DNA from: Cyanobacteria bacterium RM1_2_2
GTDB lineage: Bacteria > Cyanobacteriota > Cyanobacteriia > Elainellales > Elainellaceae
Direction of reading: 5' to 3'
Length of the DNA: 36,862 bases
NCBI GenBank assembly: GCA_012033495.1
Contig: JAAUQT010000030.1
Span: 1 to 36,862 of the forward strand
Shown here: one piece after another, positions 16,519-36,524 of the stretch
Layout: every line of letters begins with the position of its first letter
Position numbering within the stretch: the first letter of the stretch is position 1
Position numbers and translations under genes: made by a program
Notes under the pieces: model-generated
The model's input: the letters and a program-made list of their open reading frames with translations, nothing else
What the model was told of the DNA's origin: nothing
Database searches by the model: none

Positions 16519-18750
16519 TTACCGCCAGATTTTGACGGTCGTATCGCTGCTGCTGCTAACAAGCGTGGCATCGGCAGGGTTGGGTGACACCGACAGAACC
16601 CAGTCAGAGTGGGCTGGCAGGGTTTGCACAGCTTGCCCGGTTTGGACATCCCACGTTCTGATCGTTTTGTCATCACTGCCGCTGACAATCATGTCGTGAC
16701 CGACAAAAGCCACTGAAACCACCCGATCGGTATGCCCTTCATAGGTTTGCAGCAGTTGTCCCGTTTCTGCATTCCACAGCTTGACAAATCCATCCCAGCC
16801 AGCGCTTGCCAAATGTTTGCCATCTGAACTGAACGCAACGGCTCTAACTGGCTCTCGGTGTCCGCCGGGTTCCCCTAATGTTCGGATCAACTCCCCGGTT
16901 GCTACATCCCAAAGTTTGATCGTTTTATCTTCACTGCCGCTGGCAATCGTTTTGCCATCCGAACTCAGAGCCACCGAGTAAACCGTCTGTGAATGCCCGG
17001 TCAGAAGACGACTACTGCCTGTTCGCAAATCCCAAACTCTGACGGTTTTATCGGTGCTGCCACTCACCAGCGTTTGTCCATCCGCAGCCAGCATTACCGA
17101 CCAGACTGGGGCAGAATGTCCGTTTAGGGTTTGCAGCAGTTTGCGGGTGGATAAATCCCAAATTTTGATCGTGCTATCGTCACTGCCGCTAGCCAGAATA
17201 TTGGTTTCACTGACGCTGAGCGAACGCACAATATTGGTATGCTGTTCTAGCGTTTGGGTCACTTGCTGAGTTTGTAGATCCCAAATTTTGATCGGGTATA
17301 GGCTCGCAGCTTTGTCTTCTCCGGCGCTAATTAAAGTTTGATCGGTTGGGTTCAAAACCGCTGACCAAACCGAACCTGTGCTGCCTGATAGGGTTTCTGC
17401 GAGAGCAAACTGACGGTCGCCAAACTGACGGTCGCTGGTGAGGGCGGCAATCGGGTTGTCAGGCAACGAGAAAGGCAACGAGAAAGGCAACCAGCGCGGC
17501 AATAGGTAAACCCCAATCGCAACCGACAAGCAAGCGCCGCCGCCAATCAGTAGCCGCAGAAAGGGCGAATTGGACTTGGGTGCAGATTTGGGTGCAGACT
17601 TGGGTGCAGGCTTGAGGGTAGACTTGGGCACAGCAGACCGAGCCACAGTTTCGAGAGCCGTGGGCAAAATGGTAGGAGCATTGCTGGGATTGGGCGTATT
17701 GGAATGATAGACAGGCTCACGATGCTGACGGGTTGCTTCAAGCGGCGGGGCAGATGTTGCTGAATCCGGTGTTGTCCCTATGAAAGGCTTAGCAGCAGCT
17801 TGTAGTGCTTGACTCAGATCAGCAACAGAGGCAAAGCGATGGGCTGGCTTTTTCTCCAAACACTGCATCACAACGGCTTCGAGTTCGGGCGGCAGGTGTT
17901 CACAGTTGGGCTGCGAGCGGAAGGGCAGCACGGCTTTCAAAGCATGAGCCGTCAGCCAAGCATCATTACTGATTCGCTGCTGTTGGGTCTTCAGCCCAAA
18001 GGGGTCAACGCCCGTCAGCATTTCGTAAAGCATCACGCCAAGGCTGTAAATATCTGAGCGTTCGTCAACTTCACCCCCGCGATCAAACTGCTCTGGTGGG
18101 GCATAGCGACAAGTGCCTAAAAAAACGCTGGTCGTTGTAGCATACTCCGCTTGCAGCGAGTGAATTTTAGCGATGCCAAAATCAATGACTTTTACCAACT
18201 CTCCTAAAGCAGTGGGGGTCAGAAAAATATTGGCAGGTTTCAGGTCGCGGTGAACTACTTTAATGCGTTGTCCAGAGGTCGATTCGCCTGTCCAAAGCGT
18301 GATGCCGTCATGGGCTAGCTGTAAGCCAGCGCAGACTTGATTCATAATGTTGCAGGTACGCTCAATTGTCAGGCGCGGTTGAACAGCAAGAATCTCGGCG
18401 AGTGTTTGCCCTTGGAGATATTCCATCACATAAAAAGGATATCCTTCAGCAGTGACTCCATAGTCACTCACCTGAACAATATGAGGACTTTTAAGCGCCG
18501 CACAAATGGAACACTCTCGTTCAAACCGTTCTTTCAGATCAAAATCTGCGGCAACGGCTAAAGATTCTTTCAGGAGCTTGAGGGCAACAGGCTTACCCAA
18601 TCGAGTGTCGGTTGCTAGAAACACTTCGCCCATGCCACCGCTGCCCAACCGTTGATCAAGCCGATAGCGTTCAGGATGACCAATCAACCGACCGATCCAG
18701 GGATTAAACTGATTTGAGGAAGGATGAGACTGACTCACGGCTATCACCAC
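16519..18750 (-). CDS. Membrane Ser/Thr protein kinase with C-terminal WD40 propeller
   Basis: The 743-residue protein has a Hanks-type kinase domain at about 28-320: glycine loop LGSGGMGEVF (35-44), ATP-binding Lys58 in VALKLLK, HRDLKPAN (His167-Asp169), DFGIAK (190-195) and APPE (217-220). All catalytic residues are present. A Pro/Ser/Lys linker with repeated KSAPKSAP lies around 370-395, then one membrane helix (LRLLIGGGACLSVAIGVYLL, ~398-417). Seven WD40 repeats (~455-743; blades ending KIWD, KIWD, RVWD, KLWD, KLWN, RTWD, KIWR) follow. If the kinase is cytoplasmic, the propeller would face outward. The GTG start is supported by AGGAG five bases upstream. Likely a signalling receptor; target unknown. 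Confidence 0.92.
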   Translation of the reverse strand: MVIAVSQSHPSSNQFNPWIGRLIGHPERYRLDQRLGSGGMGEVFLATDTRLGKPVALKLLKESLAVAADFDLKERFERECSICAALKSPHIVQVSDYGVTAEGYPFYVMEYLQGQTLAEILAVQPRLTIERTCNIMNQVCAGLQLAHDGITLWTGESTSGQRIKVVHRDLKPANIFLTPTALGELVKVIDFGIAKIHSLQAEYATTTSVFLGTCRYAPPEQFDRGGEVDERSDIYSLGVMLYEMLTGVDPFGLKTQQQRISNDAWLTAHALKAVLPFRSQPNCEHLPPELEAVVMQCLEKKPAHRFASVADLSQALQAAAKPFIGTTPDSATSAPPLEATRQHREPVYHSNTPNPSNAPTILPTALETVARSAVPKSTLKPAPKSAPKSAPKSNSPFLRLLIGGGACLSVAIGVYLLPRWLPFSLPFSLPDNPIAALTSDRQFGDRQFALAETLSGSTGSVWSAVLNPTDQTLISAGEDKAASLYPIKIWDLQTQQVTQTLEQHTNIVRSLSVSETNILASGSDDSTIKIWDLSTRKLLQTLNGHSAPVWSVMLAADGQTLVSGSTDKTVRVWDLRTGSSRLLTGHSQTVYSVALSSDGKTIASGSEDKTIKLWDVATGELIRTLGEPGGHREPVRAVAFSSDGKHLASAGWDGFVKLWNAETGQLLQTYEGHTDRVVSVAFVGHDMIVSGSDDKTIRTWDVQTGQAVQTLPAHSDWVLSVSPNPADATLVSSSSDTTVKIWR

Positions 18751-20324: not shown

Positions 20325-22157
20325 TTAGGCGAGTGCAAAGTTTTCCTTCACAAAGTTCGCCTGAAGGGCGGATGACCCCAGATTCGTCATGTTGGCTTGC
20401 ACACTGAACGGGCCACCGTTGGCTAGGTCGGTAGAGAACACGGCTCGGCTGAAACCGAGAGTGTTGTTGAAGTAGACAAACACACCGCGCCCGGCTGTGA
20501 TGTTGTTATTGTCGCGGATGGCAGCAGCAGCCAGCCCAGCGTTGGCAAACTCACCTTCCAGAATCAGCAGGTTGCTGTCTCCAGAGAGTTGTTTCACGTC
20601 GCCTTTGAGGAATTTAAGCTCGTTCAAGCCGAACGCTTGTCCGCCAAACACAAGCTGGTCTTTAGCTTGCCCTTGCTCAAAGTCAGTCACAACATCGGGC
20701 TGGTTCAGGTTTTGGGCAGGGTTGCCATTCGCAAACGGATCGTTGAGGAAGCGGAACTGATCTTTGCCCAGTCCACCTGTCATCGTGTCGCCCGTTGTCA
20801 CTGCAATGTTGTTGGCATTGGTTACAGTGATTGTGCCTGTGCCACCCGTAAGGATGTCATCTCCTGCACCGCCATCCGCAATCAGACGAGTGCTTGATTT
20901 GCTGGCATCCACACTGTCGTTGCCTTCGCCACCCGCGAACTGGATCACTTCCACTCCGGTGTTAGCCAAATCGTTGATCACAAAGGTATCGTTGCCGCCT
21001 TCTCCCAGAACATTAAACACTTCAGAAGTGTCTACGGTGAGGGTGAAGCCGCCATTAGTCGCGTTTACAGGCTGTCCATCTAGTCCGTTTCGTTCAAAGA
21101 AGGCTTTGCCTGCTGCGTTTTTGCCGAGCACAAAGTTATCGCCTTTTGCGAGTGCACCTTGAACTGCGATAGTATCCCGACCGTCATTACCGCTCATGAT
21201 GTCGTTCCCGTCACCGTCTGCCCATGCTAGAACGTCATCGCCTGCGCCGCCAATCATGCGGTCATCACCTTTCGCACCAACCACAACATCGTTGCCATCG
21301 CCACCGTCGAGCGTATCATTGGCAGAACTGCCGATCAGTGTGTCATCGCCAGCCCCACCCTGAGCGCTAATTTGGATGGCGGTTTCTTGTGCGTTTAAGC
21401 TATCGTTGCCTTCTCCACCATCAAACTGAATGAGTTCTACTCCGGCTCCTGTCAGGTCTTTGACGGTGAATGTATCATTACCGCCACCGCCAACTACGTT
21501 AAAGACTTCGGAGGTATCAACGACCAGATTAAACAAGTCAACTGCCTGTCCATCCAGTCCAGTGCGCTCGAAAAAGGCTTTATTTTGGGCATTTTTGCCA
21601 AGCACAAAGTTATCGCCTTGGAGTCCAGAACCATTCACTAAAACGGTATCTCGTCCGTCATTACCGCTGATCGCATCGTTGCCATCACCGTTATTCCAAA
21701 TCAATAGATCGTCGCCAGATCCACCCAACATTCGATCGTTTCCGGTGTTGCCAGCAATCACATCATTGCCGCTGTTACCCCTCAGCCGATCGTTTCCAGA
21801 GCCGCCGCTCAAGTTATCATTTCCAGCATTACCTGAAATGTTATCGTCACCTGAGCCGCCATCAACTGTATCATCTCCGTTACCACCAGAAATTTTATCT
21901 TTTCCAGCAGCACCCGTAATGGTATCGTTTCCGTCACCGCCGTTGAGGGTATCGTCTCCGGCTCCACCATTCACCGTATCGTTACCTCTTCCGCCATCAA
22001 CTAAATCTTTTCCAGTTCCACCGTTACAGTTATCATCTCCATCTAGACCTTTGAGAATATCATCACCACCTTGTCCAAAATAGATGTCGTCTTTGTTAGT
22101 ACCGGGAAAGAGATCGACGTCGTTGGTTCCAATCAGTTTCTTAGGTGCTTTAGCCAT
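20325..22157 (-). CDS. RTX (hemolysin-type calcium-binding repeat) secreted protein
   Basis: The 610-residue protein begins MAKAPKKLIGTNDVDLFPGTNKDDIYFG without a Sec signal. Runs of GGxGxDxLx nonapeptides (residues ~30-150 and around 265-310) form Ca2+-binding beta rolls typical of type I secretion substrates. Two copies of a ~95-residue module are obvious, beginning SGNDGRDTVLV and SGNDGRDTIAV. Each runs through GDNFVLGKNA, KAFFER-GLDGQ, VDTSEVFNV and GNDTFxxxDL to IQFxGGEGNDS. The C-terminal third (DVVTDFEQGQAKDQLVFGG ... VFVYFNNTLGFSRAVFSTDLANGGPF) resembles the C-terminal domain of cyanobacterial bluetail-type calcium-binding proteins. AGGAG eight bases before the ATG fixes the start. 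It is probably an outer surface or extracellular protein; no catalytic domain is seen. Confidence 0.9.
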   Translation of the reverse strand: MAKAPKKLIGTNDVDLFPGTNKDDIYFGQGGDDILKGLDGDDNCNGGTGKDLVDGGRGNDTVNGGAGDDTLNGGDGNDTITGAAGKDKISGGNGDDTVDGGSGDDNISGNAGNDNLSGGSGNDRLRGNSGNDVIAGNTGNDRMLGGSGDDLLIWNNGDGNDAISGNDGRDTVLVNGSGLQGDNFVLGKNAQNKAFFERTGLDGQAVDLFNLVVDTSEVFNVVGGGGNDTFTVKDLTGAGVELIQFDGGEGNDSLNAQETAIQISAQGGAGDDTLIGSSANDTLDGGDGNDVVVGAKGDDRMIGGAGDDVLAWADGDGNDIMSGNDGRDTIAVQGALAKGDNFVLGKNAAGKAFFERNGLDGQPVNATNGGFTLTVDTSEVFNVLGEGGNDTFVINDLANTGVEVIQFAGGEGNDSVDASKSSTRLIADGGAGDDILTGGTGTITVTNANNIAVTTGDTMTGGLGKDQFRFLNDPFANGNPAQNLNQPDVVTDFEQGQAKDQLVFGGQAFGLNELKFLKGDVKQLSGDSNLLILEGEFANAGLAAAAIRDNNNITAGRGVFVYFNNTLGFSRAVFSTDLANGGPFSVQANMTNLGSSALQANFVKENFALA

Positions 22158-22590: not shown

Positions 22591-24471
22591 ATGTTTGCGA
22601 AAATTCCAGAGCAGTCTATGCGTCTGATCCGCTGGGGTTTCACCCTTGGCTGGGGACTGCTGATTTTATCTCTGTTCTACGATCCAGTTTCAAGTCATCT
22701 AACCCAACCAGGACAACAATTTGCCGCCTCTAGCGCTGAAGGTTGCTTCCAATTTCAGGGTGAATGCCTGCCGCTGGCTGCCTACCCCATGGGAGCAAGA
22801 ATTTTCTGGGGGATGGTTCTGCCGCTAACCATCATGATTTTATTTGTGCTTGGCCATGAGGCATGGCGGCGCATCTGTCCGCTATCCTTTCTCTCTCAAA
22901 TTCCCCGCGCTTTGGAATGGCAACGCAAACGAGTGATTGACGAACAGTCTTGGTTGGGCCAAAATGCGCTATCGTTTCAGTTCGTTTTATTATTCATTGG
23001 CTTAAACATCAGGCTTCTACTCGTTAATTCTGATCGCGTTCTTCTAGGCATTTTTCTACTATTGACTATCCTTGCCGCGATCACAGTTGGTTTCCTTTAC
23101 GATGGCAAAACCTGGTGTCAATATTTTTGCCCTATGGCTCCGGTGCAGATAGTTTACAGCGAGCCAGGCGGACTGTTAGGAAGCCATGCTCATACGGCTC
23201 CCCCTAAAACCATTACCCAATCGATGTGTCGCACGATCGACCGAGGACGGGAGAAATCTGCCTGTGTTGCTTGCACGATGTCCTGCATCGATATTGACGC
23301 AGAAGCAGCCTATTGGGATAACATCAAACAACCAGAGCGCAGAATGCTCTACTACGCTTATGTAGGCTTGATTATTGGATTCTATTTATACTTCTGGCTA
23401 TATTCAGGCAATTGGAATTTTCTGTCGGCAGGGGTTTGGAACGAAACGAATCAACTTGCTACTCTTTTACGTCCTGGATTTTATCTCAACGGTGTTGCAA
23501 TTCCCATTCCCAAACTGCTAGCAGTTCCCTTCACTCTAACCGCCTGCTCTGGTGCAACCTACGCGATCGGACTTTGGGCAGAAAAGCAAATTAAGCGACG
23601 GAACAGACGCGCCCACTCTCCGATTAGCCCTGAACAGTTGCAAAGCCGTCTGTTTGCTGTCACCACTTTTATTTGCTTCAACCTGCTATTTTTTATGGGA
23701 GTCCGCCCGACGTTAGGCTATTTGCCTTTATTTCTACAGCAATTACTGAGTTGGTTTGCAGTCGTTGTCAGCAGCTTGTGGCTAGTGAAAACATGGCATC
23801 GCAGCTTGCAGCGCTATCACCGCGAACGAGACGCCAATCTCTTGCGCCAGCAGTTGAGCAGACTTGAAGTTGATTTCTCTCAGTTACTAGAAGGGCGCGC
23901 CCTGCACGACCTCAAACCAGATGAGCTTTATGCTTTGGCAAAGGTGCTGCCGAGCTATTCACAGGACTATCGCCTTCAGGTCTACCGAGGGGTGCTGCGA
24001 GAAGCGTTGGAGCAGAAAAGTATGACGCCAGCCAAAAGCCTGAGCATGTTTGAATCCTTGCGACAGAAGCTAGAAATTTCGGAGGCGGTTCATTGGCAAA
24101 TCTTAGAGAAATTACAGGCTGAAGAGCCTCTTTTGTTTGAGTTCTTGCATTCTTCTGATTCAGCTACAACGGTCTATCGTCCTTCTGCTAATCGTTTAGA
24201 TGGTCGTTTAGGTAGACGTTCGACTGATCATTCTGCTAATCGTTCAACTCCTTCAACTTTAGAGCCAACCATTCATAGACCGTTCAGGCAGGACGTAGAC
24301 TTGCCAAAACTAGATTCATTTACACGCAGTCCTTCTAGCGTCAATCAGGCTGAGCCATCTGATCCTGATGCTACTCGCGTTGATTCTGCATCATTGAACC
24401 ACCGCGATCAGCAAAATAAGCCTTCTGACACTTCAGATCAGACGACTCGATGGCGCGACCCTAATTCATAA
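22591..24471 (+). CDS. Polytopic membrane protein with 4Fe-4S (NapH/CcoG-like) cysteine motifs
   Basis: The 626-residue protein has about seven to eight membrane helices in residues 12-400 and a soluble tail. Between helices lie the cysteines expected of a membrane-bound electron-transfer protein: RRICPLSF (Cys96), WCQYFCPMAPVQ (Cys176, Cys180) and MCRTIDRGREKSACVACTMSC (Cys213, 225, 228, 232). CxxxCP followed by CxxCxxxC resembles the NapH/CcoG/RdxA polyferredoxin-type membrane proteins, which move electrons between quinol and soluble partners. The tail (~400-500) is helical, and residues 540-627 are Ser/Asp/Arg-rich low complexity. The adjacent FHA-FNR-ferredoxin fusion, 62 bases downstream, is a plausible electron partner. 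The ATG at 22591 follows AGAGG; an in-frame TTG sits just before it. Exact function unknown. Confidence 0.75.
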   Translation: MFAKIPEQSMRLIRWGFTLGWGLLILSLFYDPVSSHLTQPGQQFAASSAEGCFQFQGECLPLAAYPMGARIFWGMVLPLTIMILFVLGHEAWRRICPLSFLSQIPRALEWQRKRVIDEQSWLGQNALSFQFVLLFIGLNIRLLLVNSDRVLLGIFLLLTILAAITVGFLYDGKTWCQYFCPMAPVQIVYSEPGGLLGSHAHTAPPKTITQSMCRTIDRGREKSACVACTMSCIDIDAEAAYWDNIKQPERRMLYYAYVGLIIGFYLYFWLYSGNWNFLSAGVWNETNQLATLLRPGFYLNGVAIPIPKLLAVPFTLTACSGATYAIGLWAEKQIKRRNRRAHSPISPEQLQSRLFAVTTFICFNLLFFMGVRPTLGYLPLFLQQLLSWFAVVVSSLWLVKTWHRSLQRYHRERDANLLRQQLSRLEVDFSQLLEGRALHDLKPDELYALAKVLPSYSQDYRLQVYRGVLREALEQKSMTPAKSLSMFESLRQKLEISEAVHWQILEKLQAEEPLLFEFLHSSDSATTVYRPSANRLDGRLGRRSTDHSANRSTPSTLEPTIHRPFRQDVDLPKLDSFTRSPSSVNQAEPSDPDATRVDSASLNHRDQQNKPSDTSDQTTRWRDPNS

Positions 24472-24533: not shown

Positions 24534-26048
24534 ATGCTGAAACTCAAAGTCTTCAACTATCAAAACGGCGATCTTCAGGAAATATCACTCGCTCCTGAAA
24601 CAATGTCTCACCACGAATGCTCAATCGGACGAGCCTCTAGCTGTCATTTAGTTTTAGACAGCCTTGATGTAAGCCGAGTGCATAGCCAAATTAAGTTTGA
24701 GCAAACAGCATATCACTATACTGATTTAGGCAGCGCCAACGGATCAAGAATCAATAATAGTACAATTCAGGCAAACCAAAGCCATGCTTTGAAAATCGGT
24801 GACTTGATTCAAATCGGAGATTTTGTCTTGTTAGTTGAAGGAATCGAAGCGGAATCATCGGGCGGAGAAACCTCGGTTTGGAAGAGAATTGCCGGAGAAC
24901 GACAATGGACAAAAGGTGAGCTATGCGTTCGCTGTGTGCGAATTGTTGATGAAACCCCTGATGTGAAGACGTTTACCTTCGCTGCTGAGCCGCCTGTGCA
25001 GTTTGACTACAAACCGGGACAGTTTGTGACGCTAGACCTCAAAATTGACGGTGAAGAGGTGTCTCGTTCCTACTCGATATCTTCGACGCCTTCCCGCCCC
25101 CATACGCTCGAAATCACCGTGAAGCGGGTGGCAGCCCCAACTGAGATCCCGAACGTTCCGAGCGGCTTGGTCTCTAACTGGCTGCACGACCATCTGAACG
25201 TTGGCGATCCTATTAAACTTAACGGCCCCTTCGGAAAATTCACCTGCCTGCCCAATCTGCCTGCCAAACTGCTGCTGATCTCCGCTGGAAGCGGCATCAC
25301 GCCTATGATGTCCATGTCACGCTGGATAGCTGACCGGGTTGCAGACTCAGATCTGGTGTTTTTCCACTGCGCCCGCACGCCCCGCGATCTGATCTTTCGG
25401 CAAGAACTGGAAATGATGGCAACTCGTTTAGCCAATTTCCGTCTGGCAGTCAGCATCACTCGCGCTGAATTGGGGCAACCGTGGCTTGGTTTGACGGGAC
25501 GATTAACAGCAACCATGCTGCAAACCATCGCTCCAGATTGGCGAGAACGCACGATTTATGTCTGCGGCCCAGAAGGCTTTATGCAGGGCACAAAATCTTT
25601 GTTGGCAGGGCTAAACTTCCCGATGCAAAACTATTACGAAGAGAGCTTCGGCGCACCGAAACAGAAGGCAGCTTCCAGTGCATCGGCTCCCAGTGCATCG
25701 GCTCCCAGTTCGGCTCCCAGTTCGGCTTCCAGTGCATCGGCTCCCATCATGGCGGTAGCGGCATCAACTCCAACGGCTGCAAATACAACGAAAGTGATTT
25801 TTGCTCAATCGGAAAAAGAAATTGCAGCAGATGGCTCAGCCTCAATTTTGGAACTGGCAGAGCAGGCAGGCGTCAAAATTCGGAGTAGCTGTAAGCAAGG
25901 AGTCTGCGGGGCTTGCAAGAAACGCAAACTGTCGGGTGAAGTGAAGTATGAATCTGAACCGGATGCCTTAGATCAAAGTGAGCAGGATGCTGGATATATT
26001 TTGGCGTGTATTGCGGCTCCGGTGGGACAAGTCGCAATCGAGGCGTGA
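24534..26048 (+). CDS. FHA - flavodoxin/ferredoxin reductase - 2Fe-2S ferredoxin fusion protein
   Basis: A three-part 504-residue protein. Residues 1-100 form a forkhead-associated domain, which binds phosphothreonine peptides: IGRASSCHLVL with Arg33, SRVHSQI with Ser47 and His50, and DLGSANGSRIN with Asn69-Gly70. Residues ~125-370 form an FNR-type reductase: FAD-binding RSYSIS (178-183), a glycine-rich NAD(P) motif AGSGITPMM (251-259) and CGPEGFM (344-350). After a Ser/Ala/Pro linker (379-412) comes a plant-type 2Fe-2S ferredoxin with Cys453, Cys458, Cys461 and Cys492 (CKQGVCGAC ... YILAC). The last two parts together match Hcr-like class IA reductases. The FHA fusion suggests that docking depends on phosphorylation, perhaps by a Ser/Thr kinase. 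Partner unknown; all key residues are present. Confidence 0.9.
   Translation: MLKLKVFNYQNGDLQEISLAPETMSHHECSIGRASSCHLVLDSLDVSRVHSQIKFEQTAYHYTDLGSANGSRINNSTIQANQSHALKIGDLIQIGDFVLLVEGIEAESSGGETSVWKRIAGERQWTKGELCVRCVRIVDETPDVKTFTFAAEPPVQFDYKPGQFVTLDLKIDGEEVSRSYSISSTPSRPHTLEITVKRVAAPTEIPNVPSGLVSNWLHDHLNVGDPIKLNGPFGKFTCLPNLPAKLLLISAGSGITPMMSMSRWIADRVADSDLVFFHCARTPRDLIFRQELEMMATRLANFRLAVSITRAELGQPWLGLTGRLTATMLQTIAPDWRERTIYVCGPEGFMQGTKSLLAGLNFPMQNYYEESFGAPKQKAASSASAPSASAPSSAPSSASSASAPIMAVAASTPTAANTTKVIFAQSEKEIAADGSASILELAEQAGVKIRSSCKQGVCGACKKRKLSGEVKYESEPDALDQSEQDAGYILACIAAPVGQVAIEA
25671..25746 (+). repeat. In-gene linker repeat (Ser-Ala-Pro coding)
   Basis: Units of gcttccagtgcatcg and gctcccagtgcatcg/gctcccagttcg encode ASSASAPSASAPSSAPSS inside the FHA-reductase-ferredoxin gene. 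The repeat should be length-variable and makes a flexible tether for the ferredoxin domain. Confidence 0.8.
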
Positions 26049-26142: not shown

Positions 26143-26778
26143 ATGAGCAATCCCAACCGCATCTTAATTCTATTTGCTCACCCTGCCCTAGAAAAGTCGA
26201 GGATCAATCGGCATTTAATTGAAGCCATCAAAGGATTAGAGGCTGTCACGGTTCATGATCTTTACGAAGCCTATCCTGACTTTCATATCAACGTGAAATT
26301 TGAGCAGGATCTCCTCCTATCTCATGACATTATTGTGTTCCATCACCCGTTTTATTGGTATAGCAGTCCTGCTATTTTGAAAGAGTGGCAAGACCTCGTG
26401 TTGGAGTATGATTTTGCCTACGGACACCCGGAAACCGCGCTGCGGGGCAAAAAGTTTCTTTCCGCGATTACCACTGGCGGCGGCGAGCAGGCATACTGCC
26501 GAGCAGGCCATAACCGCTTCGCTATTCGAGAACTGCTGCTGCCCTTCGAGCAAACTGCTCACCTCTGCGGTATGGAATATCTACCGCCCTTTGTGGTGTA
26601 TGGTACTCATCGACTCCGAGAACACGAGCAAATTATCCCGCATTTGCAAGACTACCGAGCCGCAATTATGGCTTTGCGTGATGACACCGTAAATTGGGAA
26701 GTTCTGCGGCAGTGTAAAACTTTGAATCAGGACTTGCAGCAAGTGATTCAGCAATCAGAGGTGGCACACAATGCATAA
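26143..26778 (+). CDS. KefF-like NAD(P)H-dependent quinone oxidoreductase (antiporter partner)
   Basis: A 211-residue flavodoxin-fold FMN protein of the NAD(P)H dehydrogenase (quinone)/KefF family. It reads ILILFAHPALEKSRINRHL (phosphate-binding region), VTVHDLYEAYPDF, IIVFHHPFYWYSSPAILKEWQDLVL, the AYGHP segment, FLSAITTGGGEQAY and MEYLPPFVVYGTH. The Pro-Phe-Tyr-Trp-Tyr and TTGGGE stretches and the YGH...AL-GK order match E. coli KefF, the ancillary subunit of the KefC K+/H+ antiporter. Its last 8 bases overlap the start of the antiporter gene, so translation is coupled. That pairing strongly supports the assignment. The gene lies 94 bases after the FHA fusion gene; that gap has a small hairpin (aggac...gtcct) without a T run. 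Confidence 0.85.
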   Translation: MSNPNRILILFAHPALEKSRINRHLIEAIKGLEAVTVHDLYEAYPDFHINVKFEQDLLLSHDIIVFHHPFYWYSSPAILKEWQDLVLEYDFAYGHPETALRGKKFLSAITTGGGEQAYCRAGHNRFAIRELLLPFEQTAHLCGMEYLPPFVVYGTHRLREHEQIIPHLQDYRAAIMALRDDTVNWEVLRQCKTLNQDLQQVIQQSEVAHNA

Positions 26779-28657
26779 CGAAGGGTTCTTCTTTCAAGCA
26801 TTCATTTATCTATTAGCTGCGGTTTTGTCAGTGCCGATCTCGAATCGGTTGGGGCTAGGTTCCGTTTTGGGTTATCTCATCGCTGGCGTCATCATTGGGC
26901 CGTTTGGGTTGCGCTTTGTCGGGCAAGAGGGAGAAGATGTCATGCACTTTGCCGAATTTGGCGTGGTGATGATGCTTTTTCTGGTCGGGTTAGAACTCCA
27001 ACCCTCGCTGCTGTGGCGGTTACGACTCCCAATTTTGGGACTGGGCGGATTGCAAGTTGCCGTCACTGCCGGGGCGACGGTGGCGCTTGGCTTATTGCTT
27101 AACGTGCCGTGGCAAACTGCGCTAGCTGTGGGCTTAATTTTGGCGATGTCGTCAACGGCAATTGTGCTGCAAACCCTGAACGAGAAGGGATTGGCGAAAA
27201 CCGAAGCGGGACAGTCGGCTTTTTCAGTGCTGCTGTTTCAAGATATCGCGGTGATCCCAATTTTGGCGCTCTTGCCCCTGTTAGCCCTCAAAGGAAACAC
27301 AACCGTGATGCTGGCATCTAACGGCTTGATGATTGCGGCAGAACCAACCCAGAACGCCCTCCCCGGCTGGCAACAAGCCCTGTTGGTGATGGGAACCGTA
27401 GGTGGCATTATCGTCGCTGGACGGTTTCTGATGCGTCCGATTTTCCGACTCATTGCAGCCACCCGCCTGCGAGAAATTTTTACGGCAACGGCTCTACTTT
27501 TAGTGATCGGCATCGCTTTGGCCATGCAAAAAGTTGGCTTGTCGCCTGCGCTAGGAACGTTTGTGGCAGGTGTGGTGCTGGCAGATAATGAATACCGTCA
27601 CGAACTGGAAAGCGATATCGATCCGTTTAAGGGGTTGCTATTGGGCTTGTTTTTCATTTCGGTGGGAGCCAGCATCAACTTTAATTTACTGATTCAGCAA
27701 CCGTTCGTGATTCTCGGATTGGTACTCGGATTAGTTGCCGTCAAGTTCGCCGTGCTGTTCGGGCTGGGTCGGTTCTTTCGCATGGAGTTGAGCCAGAGTT
27801 TGCTGTTTGCCTTTGCCTTGGCGCAGGGTGGCGAATTTGCCTTTGTGCTCTTTTCCTTTGCGACTCAAAACCAGATCTTGGCATCTAGCATTGCTGAACC
27901 GTTAGTGGCGACTGTGGCGCTGTCGATGGTTTTAACCCCGCTGCTGATGATTGTGAATGACCGATTGGTGCAGCCCCGCTTCACTGAAACCGAAGCCGAA
28001 CGGGAAGCCGATCAAATCGACGATAACGAAAATCCAGTCATTATTGCTGGATTCGGGCGATTTGGGCAAATTGTTGGACGGTTGCTGATTGCTAACGGCT
28101 GTCGGGCTACGCTGCTCGAACACAGCCCTACACAGATCGATTTGCTGCGGCGATTTGGCTGGAAAATCTTTTACGGAGATGCTTCTCGGCTCGATCTGCT
28201 CCATGCGGCCGGTGCGCGGCGGGCTAGACTGCTCGTGATTGCAATCGATGACCGGGAGAAAGCCGTCGAAATGGTGAAGCTGGCCCACAAGCATTTTCCC
28301 CATCTGAAAATCCTGGCTCGCGCTCACGATCGCCGTCATGCCTACGAACTGATTCGCCAAGGCGCAGACGTGATTCACCGGGAAACCTTCGGCTCAGCCC
28401 TAGAGATGGGAGTAGAAGCGCTAAAGCTGCTAGGCGTTCGCTCTTACAAGGCACATCGGGCCGCTCGCATTTTCAAACGCCACGACGAGGAAGTTTTACA
28501 CGAAATGGCACACATGGAAGGCGATGAAACCGTGCTAGTGGCGCGAACCCGTCAGCTAGCAGATGATTTGTCCCAGCTATTGCAGGCAGACGATCAAGAC
28601 TTAGTTCACTATGTCGATGGTGCATGGGATATTACAGCGTTGCGAAAAGATGCGTGA
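26771..28657 (+). CDS. KefC/KefB-type K+/H+ antiporter (CPA2) with KTN domain
   Basis: A 628-residue CPA2 antiporter for K+ efflux in exchange for H+. About 12-13 helices (6-395) include the transport motif VLLFQDIAVIP (Gln157, Asp158). The cytoplasmic loop HELESDIDPFKGLLLGLFFISVG (277-299) closely follows the glutathione-sensing loop HALESDIEPFKG of E. coli KefC. Residues ~420-545 form a KTN (TrkA-N) domain with GFGRFGQIVGRLL (427-439), GDASRLDLL and RETFGSALEMG. In E. coli this domain gates the channel in response to glutathione and its electrophile adducts. An SD-like AGAGGT sits seven bases before the ATG at 26771, within the end of the KefF-like gene. KefB and KefC cannot be separated by sequence alone. 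The function in a cyanobacterium could be protection against electrophiles or K+/pH adjustment. Confidence 0.92.
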   Translation: MHNEGFFFQAFIYLLAAVLSVPISNRLGLGSVLGYLIAGVIIGPFGLRFVGQEGEDVMHFAEFGVVMMLFLVGLELQPSLLWRLRLPILGLGGLQVAVTAGATVALGLLLNVPWQTALAVGLILAMSSTAIVLQTLNEKGLAKTEAGQSAFSVLLFQDIAVIPILALLPLLALKGNTTVMLASNGLMIAAEPTQNALPGWQQALLVMGTVGGIIVAGRFLMRPIFRLIAATRLREIFTATALLLVIGIALAMQKVGLSPALGTFVAGVVLADNEYRHELESDIDPFKGLLLGLFFISVGASINFNLLIQQPFVILGLVLGLVAVKFAVLFGLGRFFRMELSQSLLFAFALAQGGEFAFVLFSFATQNQILASSIAEPLVATVALSMVLTPLLMIVNDRLVQPRFTETEAEREADQIDDNENPVIIAGFGRFGQIVGRLLIANGCRATLLEHSPTQIDLLRRFGWKIFYGDASRLDLLHAAGARRARLLVIAIDDREKAVEMVKLAHKHFPHLKILARAHDRRHAYELIRQGADVIHRETFGSALEMGVEALKLLGVRSYKAHRAARIFKRHDEEVLHEMAHMEGDETVLVARTRQLADDLSQLLQADDQDLVHYVDGAWDITALRKDA

Positions 28658-29610: not shown

Positions 29611-32600
29611 TCAAACAATCACAAAATTGCTTGCTTTTACCGCACTCACAGAAACATTCTGGATGACTGCCAGCGTCACGAGATCGTTACGACTACCGTT
29701 CCCATCTGCATCGATCCGAATTTCTGTATCCGACCCTTGCTCTACCAATTCGATGAACTGATGGAATCGGGCAAATGGCGTTGTGCCGCTGAATTCAGAT
29801 TTGGCAAAAATTGCGCGCAGGTCGATCAGGTCTTTGTTGACTTCAAAATCGGTAATGGTGTCAGTGGCGTCTAGAGGAGAATTGAAGACAAACGTATCTT
29901 TGCCTGCTCCACCTGTAAGCGTGTCGTTGCCGCTGCCACCCACCAGAATATCGTGATTTCTTCGACCCAACAGGCGATCATTTCCCGAACCGCCTAACAG
30001 CAAATCGTCTGATTTACCGCCATCCAGAATGTCGTCTCCGCTACCGCCTTCTAAGCGATCTCTGCCACTCCCACTGATCAGGCGATCATTTCCTACGCCG
30101 CCAACCAAGCGATCGCGCCCGAAGCTGAAATCTGCTGCGCCACTGATCAGAACGTCGTCTCCGCCCATCCCTTGCAGAACATCATTTAACCAAGTGCCCC
30201 GCAAAGTGTCTGAACGATCGCTGCCCTTGCGTTTCACTCCAGGCTTGCCACCTTTGAAGCTAATTTCAGGGAAAGCCAGACCAGTTCGTCCGACGAGCCA
30301 AGTCTGCTCAGCATCGTCATCGAGCGAGTTTCCTGCCTGATCGATGATGTTGCCTTTGGTAAGCGTCAGTTTGAATTCACCTTCGAGGGTTGCCAAGGAT
30401 TGCAAATTGCTCAGCGTCCAGGTGATGTTGTCTGTTGTGGTCAGCGTTGCCCCAGCCAGTTCGATCGATTGGTCATCAAGGGTGAGTTTGAGGTCTACCA
30501 GACTGAAGTTTGATACCGGTTCACTGAACCGAAGGGTGATGGTGTCGAGGGCGTCGTCCACGCTGCTGTCACGAGCAGTTGGGCTAATTTCGACAATGAC
30601 TCCGGCGGCAGGTTTGGTGTCAATTTGCAGCGATAGGAGCGTTGAAGCCGCACTGATGTTCCCTAAGCGGTCCGTTGCCGTCACCCCGATACTGTAGCTG
30701 CCGTCTGCCAGGGGAGTCGCTGGGGTAAAGCGCCAGTTTCCTGAAGCATCAGTGACGGTGGTTCCCAGGATCGTCGTGCCGATCAATAGGGAGATCGTAC
30801 TGCCTGCTTCGGCTGTGCCGACCAGCGTCGGGGTGTTGTCCTTAGTGAGTCGATCTGTGCTGGAAACTCCGGTGTCGTCGCCAATTGCTATTGAGGGAGC
30901 GGGCGGCGTGGCGGGTGGCAGCACATCATAGATGCGGCTGAGTTGTGGTGCTGCCAGGTTGAAGTTAGCAGCCCTGTCCTGTACGGTTGCGGCGGCTAAA
31001 TCAACGGTGACAACACCATTGCTAATCGGAGTCACCAGGAAACTGTAGGTCGTATCAGAAGTGGCGACAAAATTGCTCACAGTAGCGTTCTCGATCACCA
31101 GATCGGTAGCATCAAATCCAATCACTTTTTCGTCAAACTGAGCCGTTGCCGTGAACGGTGCATTGACTTCCACAGGCGCATCAGAACTGAGGAATACCGT
31201 CGGCGCGGTAGTGTCGATCGTCACGCCAAAGACCGCACTGGTCGCCCTGTTACCCACTGCATCAGCGACCGTAGCAGTAAATTCGTAAGTGCCATCCATT
31301 AAAGCAGTGCTGGTGTAGTCGAATAACCAGTCGCCCAAACCATCAGCAACCGCTGTGCCGATGACGATTCCGCCTCGCCGTAGCTCAACCGTGCTGCTGG
31401 CTTCGGCTGTGCCTCCCAGAATCAAAGTGGCATCGTTTGTGATCTGATCGCCAACCGTGCCGCTATCTTCATTGACTTGCGTAAACGTGGGAGTTGCAGG
31501 GGGAACCGTGTCGATCACCACGTCAAAGGTGGCTGCTGGGCCGACATTGCCGACAAAATCGGTCGCCGTGGCAGAGAAAGTGTGCGGGCCGTCGGGAATG
31601 GCAGTTGCGGTATAGTCAAACGACCAGTTGCCTGCTGCATCGGTGGTGGCAGTTCCGAGAGCCACACCATCGAGCGATAGATTAACTGTGCTGTTGGCTT
31701 CGGCAGTGCCGTTGATGATCAGCGTATTGTCTTGGGTGATACCGTCGGCAGGTGCGCCGCTGTCGTCAGTGATGCCGGTGAAGACTGGAGCCACCGGAGG
31801 CGTAACGTCAATCGTGACGCTAAAGCCCACTGAACTAGCGCTAATATTGCCTGCCACATCGGTAGCAGTGGCAGTAAAGCTGTAGCTGCCGCTGGCAAGC
31901 GAAATGGCGGTGTAGTCGAATAGCCAGTTTCCGGCGGCATCGGTGGTGGTGCTGCCAAGCAACGTGCTGTCTCGGTAGACCTGAATCGTTGAGTTCGCTT
32001 CGGCTGTACCACTGACACTGAGGGTATTGTCGTTAGTGATCTGATCGCCCGGTGTGCCCGTGTCATCGCTGATGGCAGTAATCACTGGAGCCGCCGGAGC
32101 CATAATATCAACCGTAACATTGAACGCTGTTGAAGCGGCACTTCTGTTGCCTGCGGTGTCGATGGTCACTGCTGTAAACCCATAGCTGCCGTCAGCTATG
32201 GTGGTGGCAGTGTAGTTAAACAACCAGTTGCCAGCAGCATCAGTGGTGGTGGTACCGACCGCAACGCCATTCTGCTGCACTTCGATAGTGCTGTCGGCAT
32301 CGGCAGTGCCACTGATAATGAGCGTGTTGTCGTTTGTAACATTGTCGGTTGGCAGGTTGCTATCGGTGCTAATGCCGCTCACGGTCGGTGCATTCGGAGC
32401 AACGATGTCAATGGTGACAGTGAATGCCACAGCAGGAGGGCTGGCATTTCCGGCGGCATCGGTGGCAATTGCGGTGAACGCATAGGTGTTGTCGGCTAAA
32501 ACAGTGCCTGTGTAATCAAACGTCCAGTTGCCTGTGGCATCAGTCGTCACCGTTCCAATCACCCCGCCGTCTCGCAAGACTTGCACGCGACTGTTCGCTT

Positions 32601-34563
32601 CAGCAGTGCCGCTAATGATCAGCGTATTGTCATTGGTGATGCCGTCACCTAAGACCTGATTGTCTGCCTCAATCGCAGTAATGATTGGCGATTGGGGAGC
32701 GGTTGTGTCAACGGTGACAGTAAACGCAGCAGAGGCAGGGCTGGTGTTTCCGGCGGCATCGGTGGCAGTGGCAGTCAGGGTATAGGTGTCATCGGCTAGA
32801 GGGACGCTGGTGTAGTCAAACGACCAGTCACCGCTGCCATCCGCAGTTGTTATCCCAATCGCAGCCCCGTTCAGAAATACTTCTACTTCACTGTTCGCTG
32901 CGGCAGTACCGCTAATGATCAGCGTATTGTCTCCTGTGATGCGATCGGTCGATTCACCTGTGTTATCGCTAACGGCAGTAATCGCGGGTGCATTGGGGGC
33001 AGCAGCATCAATGGTGAGGGCAAATGCCGCAGAAGCCGCTCCCGTATTGCCTGCAACATCAGTGGCTATAGCAGTGATGGTATGAGCGCCGCTCTCAATG
33101 ATGGTGGCGGTGTAGTCAAAGCTCCAATCGCCGAGTGCGTCAGTCAGCGCTGTGCCAATCACCACTCCATCTAGCAGCACTTGCACGGTACTGTTGGCTT
33201 CGGCTGTGCCGCTGATGACGAGCGTGTTGTCGTTGGTGATGCCGTCATCCGCTAAGCTACCCGTGTCGTCGCTAATAGCAGTCACAACGGGCGGAGCAGG
33301 TGGCGTGGTGTCAATGATGATATCCAGTGCCGCAGAAGTAGCGCTAATGTTGCCTGCGGTGTCGGTGGCGGTTGCTGTGAAGGCGTAAGTGCCATCGGTG
33401 AGTGAGGTTCCGGTATAGTCAAACACCCAGTTGCCGACTCCATTTGCTGTAGCTGTGCCGATTTCCACCCCATCTCGGAACAACGTCACTGTGCTGTTGG
33501 CTTCGGCAGTGCCAGTGAGAATCAGCGTGGTGTCTTGGGTGATCTGATCAGAAGGGTTGCCTGTATTGTTGCTTAAAGCAGTGATGGTAGGTGGATTTGG
33601 AGCAACCGTATCGATCGTGACATTAAATGCCGCAGAAGCAACGCTAGTATTGCCCGCAATATCGATGGCTCTGGCCGTGAAGGCTTGCAAACCATCTGCT
33701 AAGGGCGTACTGATGTAGTTGAATGACCAGTTGCCGGAGGCATCTGTGAGGGCTGTGCCGATCGCAGCGCCGTTGAGCAGCACTTCGACTGTGCTGTTTG
33801 CCTCCGCAGTGCCAGTGAGGATCAGCGTGTTGTCTCTGGTAATGCGATCGGTTGGGGCAGCACTGTCATCGCTAATGGCCGTCAGGACGGGAGCCGTAGG
33901 AGCCAGCGTGTCGATCGTCACCGCAAAGACTGCCGATAGCGGGCTGACGTTGTTCGTCGCGTCGGTGGCTCTAGCGGTGAAATTGTAAGTGGCATCGGCG
34001 AGGGGCGTGCCAGTGTGATTGAAACTCCAGTTCCCGCTGGCGTCTGCGGTGGTGAGTCCGATCGAAAAGCCATTCTGAAAAAGTTCTACGCTGCTAAACG
34101 CTTCGGCCGTGCCGCCTAGAATCAGCGTGTTGTCTCTGGTGATCGTGTCAGCAGGGTTGCCCGTATTCGTGGAGAGGGTGGAAATGACGGGCGCAGCGGG
34201 AGGAGTCGTATCAACCGTAATGGTGAACTGGGCAGAAGGGGCGCTAATGTTGCCTGCCACATCTCTGGCGGTAGCAGTGAAGTTATAAACATTATCGGGT
34301 AGCGTTGTGCTCGTGTAATCGAATGTCCAATTGCCGGAAGCGTTGGCGGTCGTTGTACCGATAGATGTACCGTTGCTGAGAATTTCCACCACGGTGTTCG
34401 CTTCAGCCGTGCCAGTCAAGACCAGCGTATTGTCTTTGGTGAGGCGATCGGGGCTGCCTGTGTCGGTGCTGAAACCTGTGATGAAAGGCGCAGCGGGGGC
34501 AGTGGCATCGATTCTGACGGTGAAGGTGGCCGAATCAGCGCTGGTGTTACCTGCCGCATCCAT
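29611..34563 (-). CDS. Giant Ig-like repeat protein with RTX/type I secretion tail (main part)
   Basis: This 1650-residue frame is the C-terminal three quarters of a surface protein. It holds about 11 tandem bacterial Ig-like domains of ~99 residues (xTAPxAPxI ... DNTLxLTGTAEANSTVEVxxNGxxIGTTTADAxGNWxFDYT ... TFxVTID). A variant Ig domain follows (VFLSSDAPVEVNAPFTATAQFDEKV), then another classical one and a Big-type domain (ARDSSVDDALDTITLRFSEPVSN). Next come RTX calcium-binding nonapeptides (GGDDVLISG, GGSGDDILDGG, GGSGNDTLTGGAGKDTFVF) and a type I secretion C-terminal domain (ATDTITDFEVNKDLIDL ... ASNFVIV). Likely an exported adhesin or sheath protein. Its apparent start MDAAGN is internal: the reading frame continues from 34577 upward after one missing base. 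Confidence 0.88.
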   Translation of the reverse strand: MDAAGNTSADSATFTVRIDATAPAAPFITGFSTDTGSPDRLTKDNTLVLTGTAEANTVVEILSNGTSIGTTTANASGNWTFDYTSTTLPDNVYNFTATARDVAGNISAPSAQFTITVDTTPPAAPVISTLSTNTGNPADTITRDNTLILGGTAEAFSSVELFQNGFSIGLTTADASGNWSFNHTGTPLADATYNFTARATDATNNVSPLSAVFAVTIDTLAPTAPVLTAISDDSAAPTDRITRDNTLILTGTAEANSTVEVLLNGAAIGTALTDASGNWSFNYISTPLADGLQAFTARAIDIAGNTSVASAAFNVTIDTVAPNPPTITALSNNTGNPSDQITQDTTLILTGTAEANSTVTLFRDGVEIGTATANGVGNWVFDYTGTSLTDGTYAFTATATDTAGNISATSAALDIIIDTTPPAPPVVTAISDDTGSLADDGITNDNTLVISGTAEANSTVQVLLDGVVIGTALTDALGDWSFDYTATIIESGAHTITAIATDVAGNTGAASAAFALTIDAAAPNAPAITAVSDNTGESTDRITGDNTLIISGTAAANSEVEVFLNGAAIGITTADGSGDWSFDYTSVPLADDTYTLTATATDAAGNTSPASAAFTVTVDTTAPQSPIITAIEADNQVLGDGITNDNTLIISGTAEANSRVQVLRDGGVIGTVTTDATGNWTFDYTGTVLADNTYAFTAIATDAAGNASPPAVAFTVTIDIVAPNAPTVSGISTDSNLPTDNVTNDNTLIISGTADADSTIEVQQNGVAVGTTTTDAAGNWLFNYTATTIADGSYGFTAVTIDTAGNRSAASTAFNVTVDIMAPAAPVITAISDDTGTPGDQITNDNTLSVSGTAEANSTIQVYRDSTLLGSTTTDAAGNWLFDYTAISLASGSYSFTATATDVAGNISASSVGFSVTIDVTPPVAPVFTGITDDSGAPADGITQDNTLIINGTAEANSTVNLSLDGVALGTATTDAAGNWSFDYTATAIPDGPHTFSATATDFVGNVGPAATFDVVIDTVPPATPTFTQVNEDSGTVGDQITNDATLILGGTAEASSTVELRRGGIVIGTAVADGLGDWLFDYTSTALMDGTYEFTATVADAVGNRATSAVFGVTIDTTAPTVFLSSDAPVEVNAPFTATAQFDEKVIGFDATDLVIENATVSNFVATSDTTYSFLVTPISNGVVTVDLAAATVQDRAANFNLAAPQLSRIYDVLPPATPPAPSIAIGDDTGVSSTDRLTKDNTPTLVGTAEAGSTISLLIGTTILGTTVTDASGNWRFTPATPLADGSYSIGVTATDRLGNISAASTLLSLQIDTKPAAGVIVEISPTARDSSVDDALDTITLRFSEPVSNFSLVDLKLTLDDQSIELAGATLTTTDNITWTLSNLQSLATLEGEFKLTLTKGNIIDQAGNSLDDDAEQTWLVGRTGLAFPEISFKGGKPGVKRKGSDRSDTLRGTWLNDVLQGMGGDDVLISGAADFSFGRDRLVGGVGNDRLISGSGRDRLEGGSGDDILDGGKSDDLLLGGSGNDRLLGRRNHDILVGGSGNDTLTGGAGKDTFVFNSPLDATDTITDFEVNKDLIDLRAIFAKSEFSGTTPFARFHQFIELVEQGSDTEIRIDADGNGSRNDLVTLAVIQNVSVSAVKASNFVIV
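30109..30116. other. HIP1 octamer (GCGATCGC)
   Basis: A perfect Highly Iterated Palindrome 1 site within the RTX part of the giant gene. It is the only perfect copy noticed, but near-copies (gcgatcg) are frequent. Confidence 0.85.
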
Positions 34564-36290
34564 AGCAGTGGCAACAAATTGTAGACGCCGTTTGCAAGCG
34601 TTGTGCCTGTGTAGTCGAATGTCCAGTTGCCGGAACCATTTGTGGTGGTTGTAGTGACAAAACCGCCGTTCTGGAAAATGGCAACCGTACTATCGGCTTC
34701 GGCTGTACCTGCTAAGACCAGCGTGGTGTCGTTGGTGATGCGGTCGCCAGCCAGTCCGCTGTCTGTGGTGAGGCTGTTAATGACGGGCGCAGCCGGAGCC
34801 GTGCGGTCAATCGTGACATTAAAGGGCGCAGACGCGATGCTGGTATTTCCTGCGGCATCGGTGGCTCTGGCGGTGAAGGCATAGTTCCCATTGGCTAACG
34901 GAACTGCGGTGGCATCAAATGACCAGTTGCCCGCCGCATCTGCTGTAGCTGTGCCGATGGCAGTCCCGTTCCGCAAAACTTGCACCGTGCTGTTCGCTTC
35001 AGCAGTTCCGTTGATGATCAGCGTATTGTCGCTCGTGATGCCGTCGGTTGTACTAATCCCTGTATCTGTCGTAATACTTGCAACTGTTGGTGCGACAGGC
35101 GCAGTTTTGTCTACTGTTATGTTCAGCGCTAGTGAAGCAGCACTCGTATTCCCTGCCGCATCGGTCGCGGTGGCAGTAAAGGCATAAGTGCCATCAGACA
35201 AGTCAGTCGCGGTACCGTTATACGTCCAAACGCCGCTGCTGTTGGCGGTGGTGGTGGTGCTGAGGGGAACCCCATCTCGCAACACCTGGATCACGCTGTT
35301 GGCTGCGGCCGTACCAGACAGGATCAGCGTGCCGTCATTGGTAATCCGGTCGCCAATGATGCCGCTATCTGTGCTGAACGTGGTGACAGCCGGAGCAGCC
35401 GGAGCCGTGGCGTCAATTGTGACGTTAAATGCCGCAGAAGCTGGGCTGGTATTGGCTGCAACATCGGTAGCTGTAGCAGTAAAGGCATATACGCCATCCG
35501 TCAACGTTGTGCTGGTGTAGTCAAACGTCCAATCGCCCGCCGAATTTGCGGTTGCAAAGCCCACCGCAGCCCCATTCTGAAACACCTGGATCAGGCTATT
35601 CGCTTCGGCTGTACCATTCAGGATCAGCGTCGTGTCGTTGGTGATGCGGTCGCCTGCCGTCGCACTGTCGTCACTGATGTTGGTGATCACAGGAGCCACA
35701 GGAGCCACTCGATCGATCGTGACATTGAATGCGTCCGAGGTGTTGCTATTTCCGGCGGCGTCGGTGGCAGTAGCAGTGAAAGTATAGGTTCCGTTGGCAA
35801 GGGGAACGGACGTGTAATCAAACGTCCAGTTGCCTACTGAATCGGTCGTGGTGGTGCCGACAGGTGTTCCATCCCGTAGAATTTGGACGGTGCTATTGGC
35901 TTCGGCTGTGCCGTTCAGGATCAGCGTCGCGTCGTTAGTAATCCGGTCGGTCGGACTGCCGCTATCGCTGCTAATGGCGCTAATGAGGGGCACAGCAATG
36001 GTTGAATCGAGAGTAACGTTATAAGCCGCAGATATTGGACTTATTCCACTTCCGGTGACAGTAGCCATAGCAGTGAGCGCATATGCACCGTCGGCAGGCA
36101 GCGTTGTCGCTAATGACCAATTCCCCGCTGCATTTGCCGTTGTTGTGCCAATCGAGCTACCATTCCGGAATACTTCAACCGAACTGTTCGCAACAGCCGT
36201 TCCGCTAATGGTCAACGTGCTGTCATTGGTGACGCCATCACCGGGAGTTGCACTGTCATCTGCAATAGCGGTAATCACAGGTGAAGCTGG
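31200..36290 (-). repeat. Tandem ~297-base Ig-domain repeats
   Basis: About 17 units of roughly 297 bases (~99 residues) recur with period visible at, for example, gtatcgatcgtgac/gtgtcgatcgtcacc-like phrases at 33606, 33903 and 34204. Such arrays are prone to recombination and to assembly collapse, so the copy number in the genome may differ. Confidence 0.85.
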
Positions 36291-36402
36291 CGAATCACCC
36301 TCATAGCGAACAATTGCAAAGTCACTGTTTGCCTGACCGACCACTACGATCTTGCCATCCGGCTGCATGACCACACTGTAGCCATCGGCATCGCCGCTGC
36401 CG
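34577..36402 (-). pseudogene. Giant Ig-like protein, N-terminal part (frameshifted and truncated)
   Basis: Upstream part of the giant protein, in the frame that continues as far as 36773. From the right it reads GSGDADGYSVVMQPDGKIVVVGQANSDFAIVRYEGDSP, a delta-60-type propeller repeat, then six Ig-like repeats beginning ASPVITAIADDS. At 34576-34578 (aaa on plus) one base seems to be missing: the minus strand reads DYTGTTLANGVYN then LLPLLWMRQ, but an extra T gives YNFVATAMDAAGNTSADS and the next frame. The N-terminus is lost: beyond about 36402 the frame becomes a Val/Ile run from the antisense of a trinucleotide repeat and antisense of an unrelated gene, so the true 5' end is absent from the window. 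Confidence 0.8.
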
Positions 36403-36485: not shown

Positions 36486-36524
36486 GCATGCGTTAATGCC
36501 TGTTACAACTACGGAGGTTTCACA

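Follow-up and report, generated by a model that had tools for sequence, protein, structure and literature searches.

What would an FHA domain do on an electron-transfer protein? The question is raised by a gene in a 36,862-nucleotide stretch of DNA (hereafter the window) from Cyanobacteria bacterium RM1_2_2 (GCA_012033495.1, contig JAAUQT010000030.1), whose product carries an FHA domain, a flavin reductase and a 2Fe-2S ferredoxin. The preliminary description of this DNA supposed that Ser/Thr phosphorylation sets electron delivery or its place. The present sequence analysis partly supports this view: a predicted membrane Fe-S protein encoded next to the fusion, threonine motifs in its tail, conserved phosphothreonine contacts in the FHA domain and an enrichment of kinase genes all speak for it, while the partner gene itself had been missed.

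Domain architecture of the fusion reductase

The gene and its domains are placed as follows.

24534..26048, + strand: FHA - FAD/NAD(P) reductase - 2Fe-2S ferredoxin fusion, ATG start, 504 aa (Pfam, family alignment, AlphaFold2)
24621..24818, + strand: FHA domain, residues 30-95 (R33, S47, H50, N69-G70; Pfam, 58.8 bits)
24951..25595, + strand: reductase part, FAD- and NAD(P)-binding, residues 140-354 (Pfam; Foldseek)
25806..26021, + strand: plant-type 2Fe-2S ferredoxin domain, residues 425-496 (C453, C458, C461, C492; Pfam Fer2)

The presence of all three parts in one chain, as first described, was borne out by four Pfam domains, each scoring above its curated cut-off: FHA (PF00498, 58.8 bits, E 7.5e-16, cut-off 20.7), FAD_binding_6 (residues 140-236, 57.7 bits), NAD_binding_1 (residues 248-354, 64.3 bits) and Fer2 (residues 425-496, 50.2 bits). 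Foldseek matched the reductase domains to 7ylr, 1gvh, 2pia and others, and the RSYSIS, AGSGITP and CGPEGFM motifs on which the reductase had been recognized are all found in the protein. The FHA and cysteine residues named in the preliminary description are present as well; S47, H50, G70 and the four ferredoxin cysteines are invariant in a 25-sequence alignment of the family and R33 is at least 90% kept. N69, at a position that is a usual FHA contact, is variable, with D, S, G, C and other residues in many relatives. The AlphaFold2 model (mean pLDDT 77.4, pTM 0.53) consists of folded domains joined by low-confidence linkers at residues 107-122 and 373-416, and the described Ser/Ala/Pro tether is recovered in the second of these, with pLDDT below 50 over 373-403 and 405-416.

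A cyanobacterial family apart from GbcB

The idea that the fusion might be an isolated case did not hold. In total, 2,355 homologues were found at E <=1e-3 among 7,998 candidates scored, and FHA, FAD_binding_6, NAD_binding_1 and Fer2 types stand in the precomputed Pfam lists of all the best 120, of which those with a named organism are cyanobacterial. At least 571 relatives lie in named genomes; the best 80 of them were kept, giving 15 loci from other bacteria and 65 loci (L041-L105) whose records are named as cyanobacteria, save the metagenome bins L054 and L070, which are labelled otherwise. A match at E <=1e-60 occurs in 9 of 292 genomes sampled across the phylum, so the family is widespread but patchy. 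No published function or description of this architecture was found in the open-access literature searched.

The preliminary description took Hcr-like proteins as the nearest kind, but the glycine betaine monooxygenase reductase GbcB scores higher (364.5 versus 195.5 bits). The GbcB model (NF058606) is the top named NCBIfam model, below its equivalog cut-off of 500, and its 362 positions cover only residues 123-503, that is, the part after the FHA domain. The Hcr model (PRK10684) is likewise below its equivalog cut-off of 383, and the PaaE and BenC models reach 160.6 and 123.9 bits. In a tree built by a quick method with L108 and L115 left out, the fusion proteins group together in a single clade (SH-aLRT 99), apart from five GbcB-type sequences. 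Rieske-type neighbours, called by a Cys/His pattern rather than a profile scan, accompany 10 of the 15 non-cyanobacterial loci and, by the same clustering, none of the cyanobacterial ones. When the window genome (91.65% complete) was searched with a GbcA-like neighbour from L106, no full-length GbcA Rieske oxygenase was found, only two short matches, the better with E 3.9e-7 over 77 residues (74-150). Judged from these sequences, the FHA-reductase-ferredoxin fusion is a cyanobacterial family that branches separately from GbcB, its nearest named relative.

A predicted membrane partner encoded upstream

A second gene, here called UP, ends 62 bp upstream of the fusion on the same strand.

22591..24471, + strand: UP, predicted membrane Fe-S protein with eight helices; 626 aa when counted from ATG (the mechanical start is the preceding codon, a TTG at 22588)

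The AlphaFold2 model of UP is of good quality (pTM 0.80; 341 of 627 residues at pLDDT >=90). Cys 97, 177, 181, 214, 226, 229 and 233 (TTG numbering) are invariant in a 49-row alignment. By our reading of the helices in the model, eight cross the membrane, and the seven cysteines and the C-terminus fall on the side with nearly all loop Lys and Arg; the Fe-S cysteines and the tail are thus predicted to be cytoplasmic. The Fer4_5 profile (PF12801, cut-off 22) scores 18.7 on the window UP and 19.7, 21.2, 24.8 and 28.6 on those of L045, L115, L055 and L108, with no match listed for L102. A search of NCBIfam at E 0.001 returned no match, and a Foldseek search of the PDB gave nothing at E <3.0, which still allows a shared fold. 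Among the best 120 UP homologues listed, most are unnamed or termed 'hypothetical protein'. Two further cysteines, C53 and C60, in a hairpin that connects helices 1 and 2 and is predicted to face the lumen, are at least 90% kept in the 49-row alignment and by eye absent from L108 and L115; a redox-active or structural disulfide is possible there.

Pairing of the two genes was assessed in 81 non-redundant cyanobacterial loci, comprising the window and L021-L105 minus five duplicates. UP lies near the fusion in 67 of the 73 loci with at least 1.9 kb of upstream sequence, on the same strand and within 450 bp upstream in 62 of those 67 (median gap over the 67, 103 bp). It was not found nearby in the other six (L048, L049, L085, L086, L093 and L094), in a sample in which many loci are cut by contig ends. 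The 292 sampled genomes gave the same picture at E <=1e-60: both genes occur in 8, the reductase only in 1 and UP only in 27 (Fisher p 1.6e-7, ignoring phylogeny), with the FHA domain outside this search since 6 of the 9 reductase matches begin at residue 118 or later. In G326, the sole reductase-only genome, both genes are in fact present in shortened form: a 138-aa piece of UP lies next to a reductase ORF whose start falls behind the FHA domain (L140 6931-8785).

Arg, Ser and His residues make the phosphothreonine contacts of FHA domains, and R33, S47 and H50 are intact in 79 of 81 fusion reductases (80 from the 81 loci above, excluding the split gene in L094, plus L138). R33 and S47 are lost in two only, from the Crocosphaera bins L085 and L086, neither of which has UP nearby.

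UP itself extends beyond the fusion, with matches in 35 of the 292 genomes. In the 27 genomes lacking the reductase it is often a longer protein, and the one such UP scanned (L121) has a cyclic-nucleotide-binding domain at its end. Three genomes that lack the fusion (L129, L130, L131) encode two proteins ahead of UP: an ABC transporter protein of 666 aa, which each time exceeds the cut-off of TIGR01184 ntrCD, and one of ~280 aa that matches ABC_tran in L130. Such neighbours might suggest that UP works close to the uptake of nitrogen or carbon. Two betaproteobacterial loci from Undibacterium and Rhodocyclaceae (L108 3767-9137 and L115 1435-6451) carry a UP-reductase pair instead of a Rieske neighbour. 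Their FHA and cyclic-nucleotide-binding domains are on UP, and their reductases have a different N-terminus of ~200 aa with no Pfam FHA match. A further locus (L037 8145-15542) has two reductase genes on opposite strands and a single UP; one reductase gene directly follows that UP, and the other comes after a kinase with no UP in between.

Threonine motifs in the UP tail

The C-terminal part of UP is predicted to be disordered and holds several candidate phosphothreonines.

24154..24468, + strand: predicted disordered UP tail with candidate phosphothreonine sites (pLDDT <50 for residues 523-627, AlphaFold2)
24166-24171, + strand: candidate phosphothreonine T527/T528 (UP tail sequence)
24268-24270, + strand: candidate phosphothreonine T561, the sole window site fitting the strict motif [DE]xT[VIL]
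24373-24375, + strand: candidate phosphothreonine T596 (UP tail sequence)
24442-24447, + strand: candidate phosphothreonine T619/T620 (UP tail sequence)

The tails of UP relatives contain repeats of the type [D/E]xT[V/I]x[R/K]P, up to ~6 copies by eye, whose number and order shift from protein to protein while the motif persists. Among 125 non-redundant short tails, obtained from 189 sequences after removal of near-copies, sequences under 480 aa and long forms, the strict motif was observed 194 times versus 12.1 expected (SD 3.4, maximum 25, 300 shuffles), and its Ser version 6 times versus 11.3. Its density is 2.77 per 100 aa in the tail versus 0.026 in the body; 85 of the 125 tails have at least one copy and 61 at least two. 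Around the tail threonines, D/E at -2, V/I at +1, R/K (rarely W) at +3 and P at +4 are enriched, with nothing similar around serines. As far as the available parts of two reports go, known sites of mycobacterial kinases likewise tend to have acidic residues close to the Thr, at positions that are not exactly those of the UP tail (PMC7164672, PMC6554272). Among 773 further proteins encoded at the same loci, 27 have two or more strict motifs in the last 90 residues, and 22 of the 27 belong to the kinase/WD40 cluster.

The strict motif is present in 83 of 97 window-type UP rows, which have no genomic context except for the window, versus 2 of 28 rows from other loci, so the latter tails need a looser motif. 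With the window left aside, 46 UPs of reductase loci are short-tailed: 13 have the strict form, and in 31 of the other 33 the final 60 residues include T[VIQRLT][VILRQYAT][RK] (50 occurrences versus 6.1 expected; Ser version in the same 33 tails, 5 versus 6.0). The looser form occurs in none of 18 UPs from genomes without the reductase, hand-picked from the 27 such genomes and including 13 long proteins that end in a folded domain. Counted across their entire C-terminal part, the strict motif in these 18 is near chance (18 versus 11.1 expected, SD 3.3, maximum 22; present in 13). The 17 long UPs of reductase loci also show the looser motif at chance level (3 of 17, 2.8 expected), and another ligand would therefore be needed there. 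The co-distribution of motif and reductase is strong but not blind evidence, because the patterns, which the Ser control and the no-reductase set share, were chosen after inspection of the tails and 13 of the 18 controls end in a long folded part.

Ser/Thr kinases at the locus

A kinase gene is encoded ~5.8 kb away in the window, on the other strand.

16519..18750, - strand: Ser/Thr protein kinase carrying WD40 repeats, a candidate for acting on the pair (Pfam Pkinase, 151 bits)

An opposite-strand kinase upstream also occurs in the related loci L022, L025, L026, L028, L029 and L031. Across the 81 loci, a kinase lies within 8 kb in 45 versus 5.2 expected and within 3 kb in 31 versus 2.2 expected, where the expectation comes from 604 matches in 119.5 Mb of 19 window relatives and was obtained with a profile and threshold different from those of the locus count. 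No kinase was found within 8 kb in 36 loci, many of them cut by contig ends. The order kinase-UP-reductase on the same strand is seen in 15 loci, and a CHASE2-type kinase is located downstream in eight loci of Nostoc-type organisms. The nine kinases scanned include kinase-WD40, CHASE2-kinase, kinase-alone and kinase plus periplasmic-binding-domain architectures. From these sequences it looks as though kinases were recruited repeatedly rather than inherited as one neighbour, in a count inflated by related loci, which are not independent. The 19 cyanobacterial genomes contain 16-54 Ser/Thr kinase domain matches each, and to our knowledge few cyanobacterial Ser/Thr kinases have known targets.

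The linker after the FHA domain

A second place where a phosphosite may lie is the fusion itself.

24864..24878, + strand: GETSV, fusion residues 111-115, in the linker after the FHA domain, a possible cis phosphosite resembling the ETTS of GarA (pLDDT <50 over 107-122)

By sequence, the nearest solved FHA domains are those of GarA and OdhI (E 5.7e-7 to 3.2e-6). GETSV-type motifs occur in a number of close window-type relatives without being family-wide; many clades lack them, and the GETS form, judged by eye, is absent from most other clades. A different linker motif, [DE]x?T[VIMK][VI], was found in the reductases of 8 of the 12 loci whose UP, always a long one, has its own FHA domain, versus 1 of 48 short-UP loci. 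It would follow that reader and motif exchanged sides between UP and reductase in the FHA-bearing-UP loci; this is suggestive only, because the pattern took its wider form after inspection and a single clade supplies most of the 12 loci.

Other genes around the pair

Directly downstream of the fusion, the window has genes for a KefF/KefG-like quinone oxidoreductase and a KefC-like antiporter overlapping by 8 bp (26143-28657); the window is alone in this among the loci examined. An RTX-type calcium-binding repeat protein is encoded on the minus strand at 20325-22157. Fourteen loci have such proteins close to the pair, for the most part encoded on the opposite strand, a clustering that may reflect repeat similarity alone. 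Two large bacterial Ig-like repeat proteins (Big_13, Big_6) follow on the minus strand at 29611-36773, with RTX repeats in the first; their ORFs overlap by 148 bp in different frames and might be a single long gene that a frame change has divided.

Proposed mechanism and alternatives

Directly observed here are the domains, the pairing of the genes, the threonine motifs and how these are distributed together with the reductase, the conserved FHA residues and the excess of kinase genes. On this footing the analysis favours, with a probability of roughly 0.6, a phosphorylation-gated electron-transfer module made up of UP and the fusion. Nearby kinases would phosphorylate threonines of the UP tail, a step to which the motif and the neighbouring kinase genes point indirectly, and the FHA domain would bind the phosphorylated tail and dock the reductase there. 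Electrons would then run from NAD(P)H through FAD and the 2Fe-2S cluster to the presumed iron-sulfur clusters of UP, whose cysteines probably hold 4Fe-4S clusters, and UP would pass them into the membrane, where guesses for the recipient are a quinone or an acceptor on the lumen side. With several sites per tail, the number of phosphates could tune the amount of reductase recruited, and the kinases encoded nearby would in effect switch electron flow into the membrane. The UP-reductase system thus described appears real, conserved and functionally coherent, while unproven.

A wider version is a phosphothreonine code, in which UP is a new class of membrane Fe-S protein, various kinases write on its multi-site tail and the FHA-bearing NAD(P)H reductase reads it and plugs into the membrane, with the sides swapped in Nostoc-type lineages; we regard it as tentative and somewhat doubtful. 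If true, it would amount to a kinase-assembled NAD(P)H dehydrogenase whose membrane part has an unsolved fold, a new sort of regulated electron entry point. The locus supplies a concrete candidate kinase, substrate motif, reader and output, tying phospho-signalling to membrane redox flow.

Among the alternatives, the one that survives best, though we consider it unlikely, is that the FHA domain reads another phosphoprotein, such as an autophosphorylated kinase or a soluble oxygenase partner, with UP as a neighbour whose tail is no docking site. One locus (L049) has a kinase 427 bp from the reductase and no UP found upstream, 27 of the 35 genomes with UP have no reductase match, and GbcB serves a soluble Rieske oxygenase according to the accessible part of PMC12093977. 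The presence of UP near the reductase in 67 of 73 loci speaks against this reading, as does a tail motif that 44 of the 46 short-tailed UPs from reductase loci have, versus none of the 18 without reductase (looser form); no close GbcA was found in the window genome, which is 91.65% complete.

Less probable still is a cis switch of the GarA kind, with the phosphorylated linker (GETSV in the window) folding onto its own FHA domain and altering reductase activity or partner binding. Phosphorylation of ETTS in an unstructured extension switches GarA off, as stated in the portion of PMC5448819 available, GarA and OdhI are the nearest solved FHA sequences, and linker motifs are indeed seen, one form in window-type relatives and a second in 8 of the 12 reductases of FHA-bearing-UP loci. 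Yet most other clades lack the GETS form by eye and just 1 of 48 short-UP loci has the second form, whereas 79 of 81 reductases retain their FHA residues. Such a switch would leave the UP tails unexplained, and it could coexist with docking.

Little credence is given to the FHA domain as a phospho-independent scaffold with incidental kinases, which would make the pair a constitutive NAD(P)H-to-membrane Fe-S oxidoreductase. Phospho-independent interactions of the GarA FHA domain are the subject of a reference cited by title in PMC5448819, but the conservation of R33, S47 and H50, the specificity of the motif for Thr and not Ser, and the kinase excess argue for phosphothreonine reading. An ordinary GbcB-type reductase of a ring-hydroxylating oxygenase with a decorative FHA domain, already disfavoured, is highly improbable, since GbcB, although the top named model, scores below its cut-off, the cyanobacterial proteins form a separate clade, Rieske-type neighbours by the Cys/His pattern accompany 10 of the 15 non-cyanobacterial loci and, by clustering, none of the cyanobacterial ones, and the window genome gave no full-length GbcA-like match.

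Comparison with known systems

Hcr, PaaE and BenC have reductase and ferredoxin domains of the same kinds as the fusion and serve other partners; their models score lower than that of GbcB. GbcB shares with the fusion the domain order FAD, NAD(P) and C-terminal 2Fe-2S, but it is shorter, its model covering only the post-FHA part of the fusion, and its partner is the Rieske oxygenase GbcA (PMC12093977, in the part available). The actinobacterial GarA and OdhI, which the accessible text of PMC5448819 presents as small FHA proteins regulating metabolic enzymes, have the nearest FHA sequences, and some members of the fusion family have a candidate phosphosite motif beside the FHA domain; unlike the fusion, they are without redox domains. 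FHA-dependent recruitment via phosphothreonine is described for mycobacterial FhaA with CwlM, and for MurJ/MviN as cited there, in the excerpts at hand of PMC6180346. That system acts in cell-wall synthesis with no electron transfer, and kinship to the fusion is claimed for the FHA domain alone. No case of FHA-phosphothreonine recruitment in electron transfer was found in the open-access literature searched.

On the membrane side, we take the NapH, NosR and CcoG-type membrane polyferredoxins to be the comparison class for UP. Membrane helices and a CxxxCP motif are common to both, and Fer4_5 exceeds its cut-off in some UPs; UP differs in its tail, in a helical domain at its C-terminal end and in a set of invariant residues of its own.
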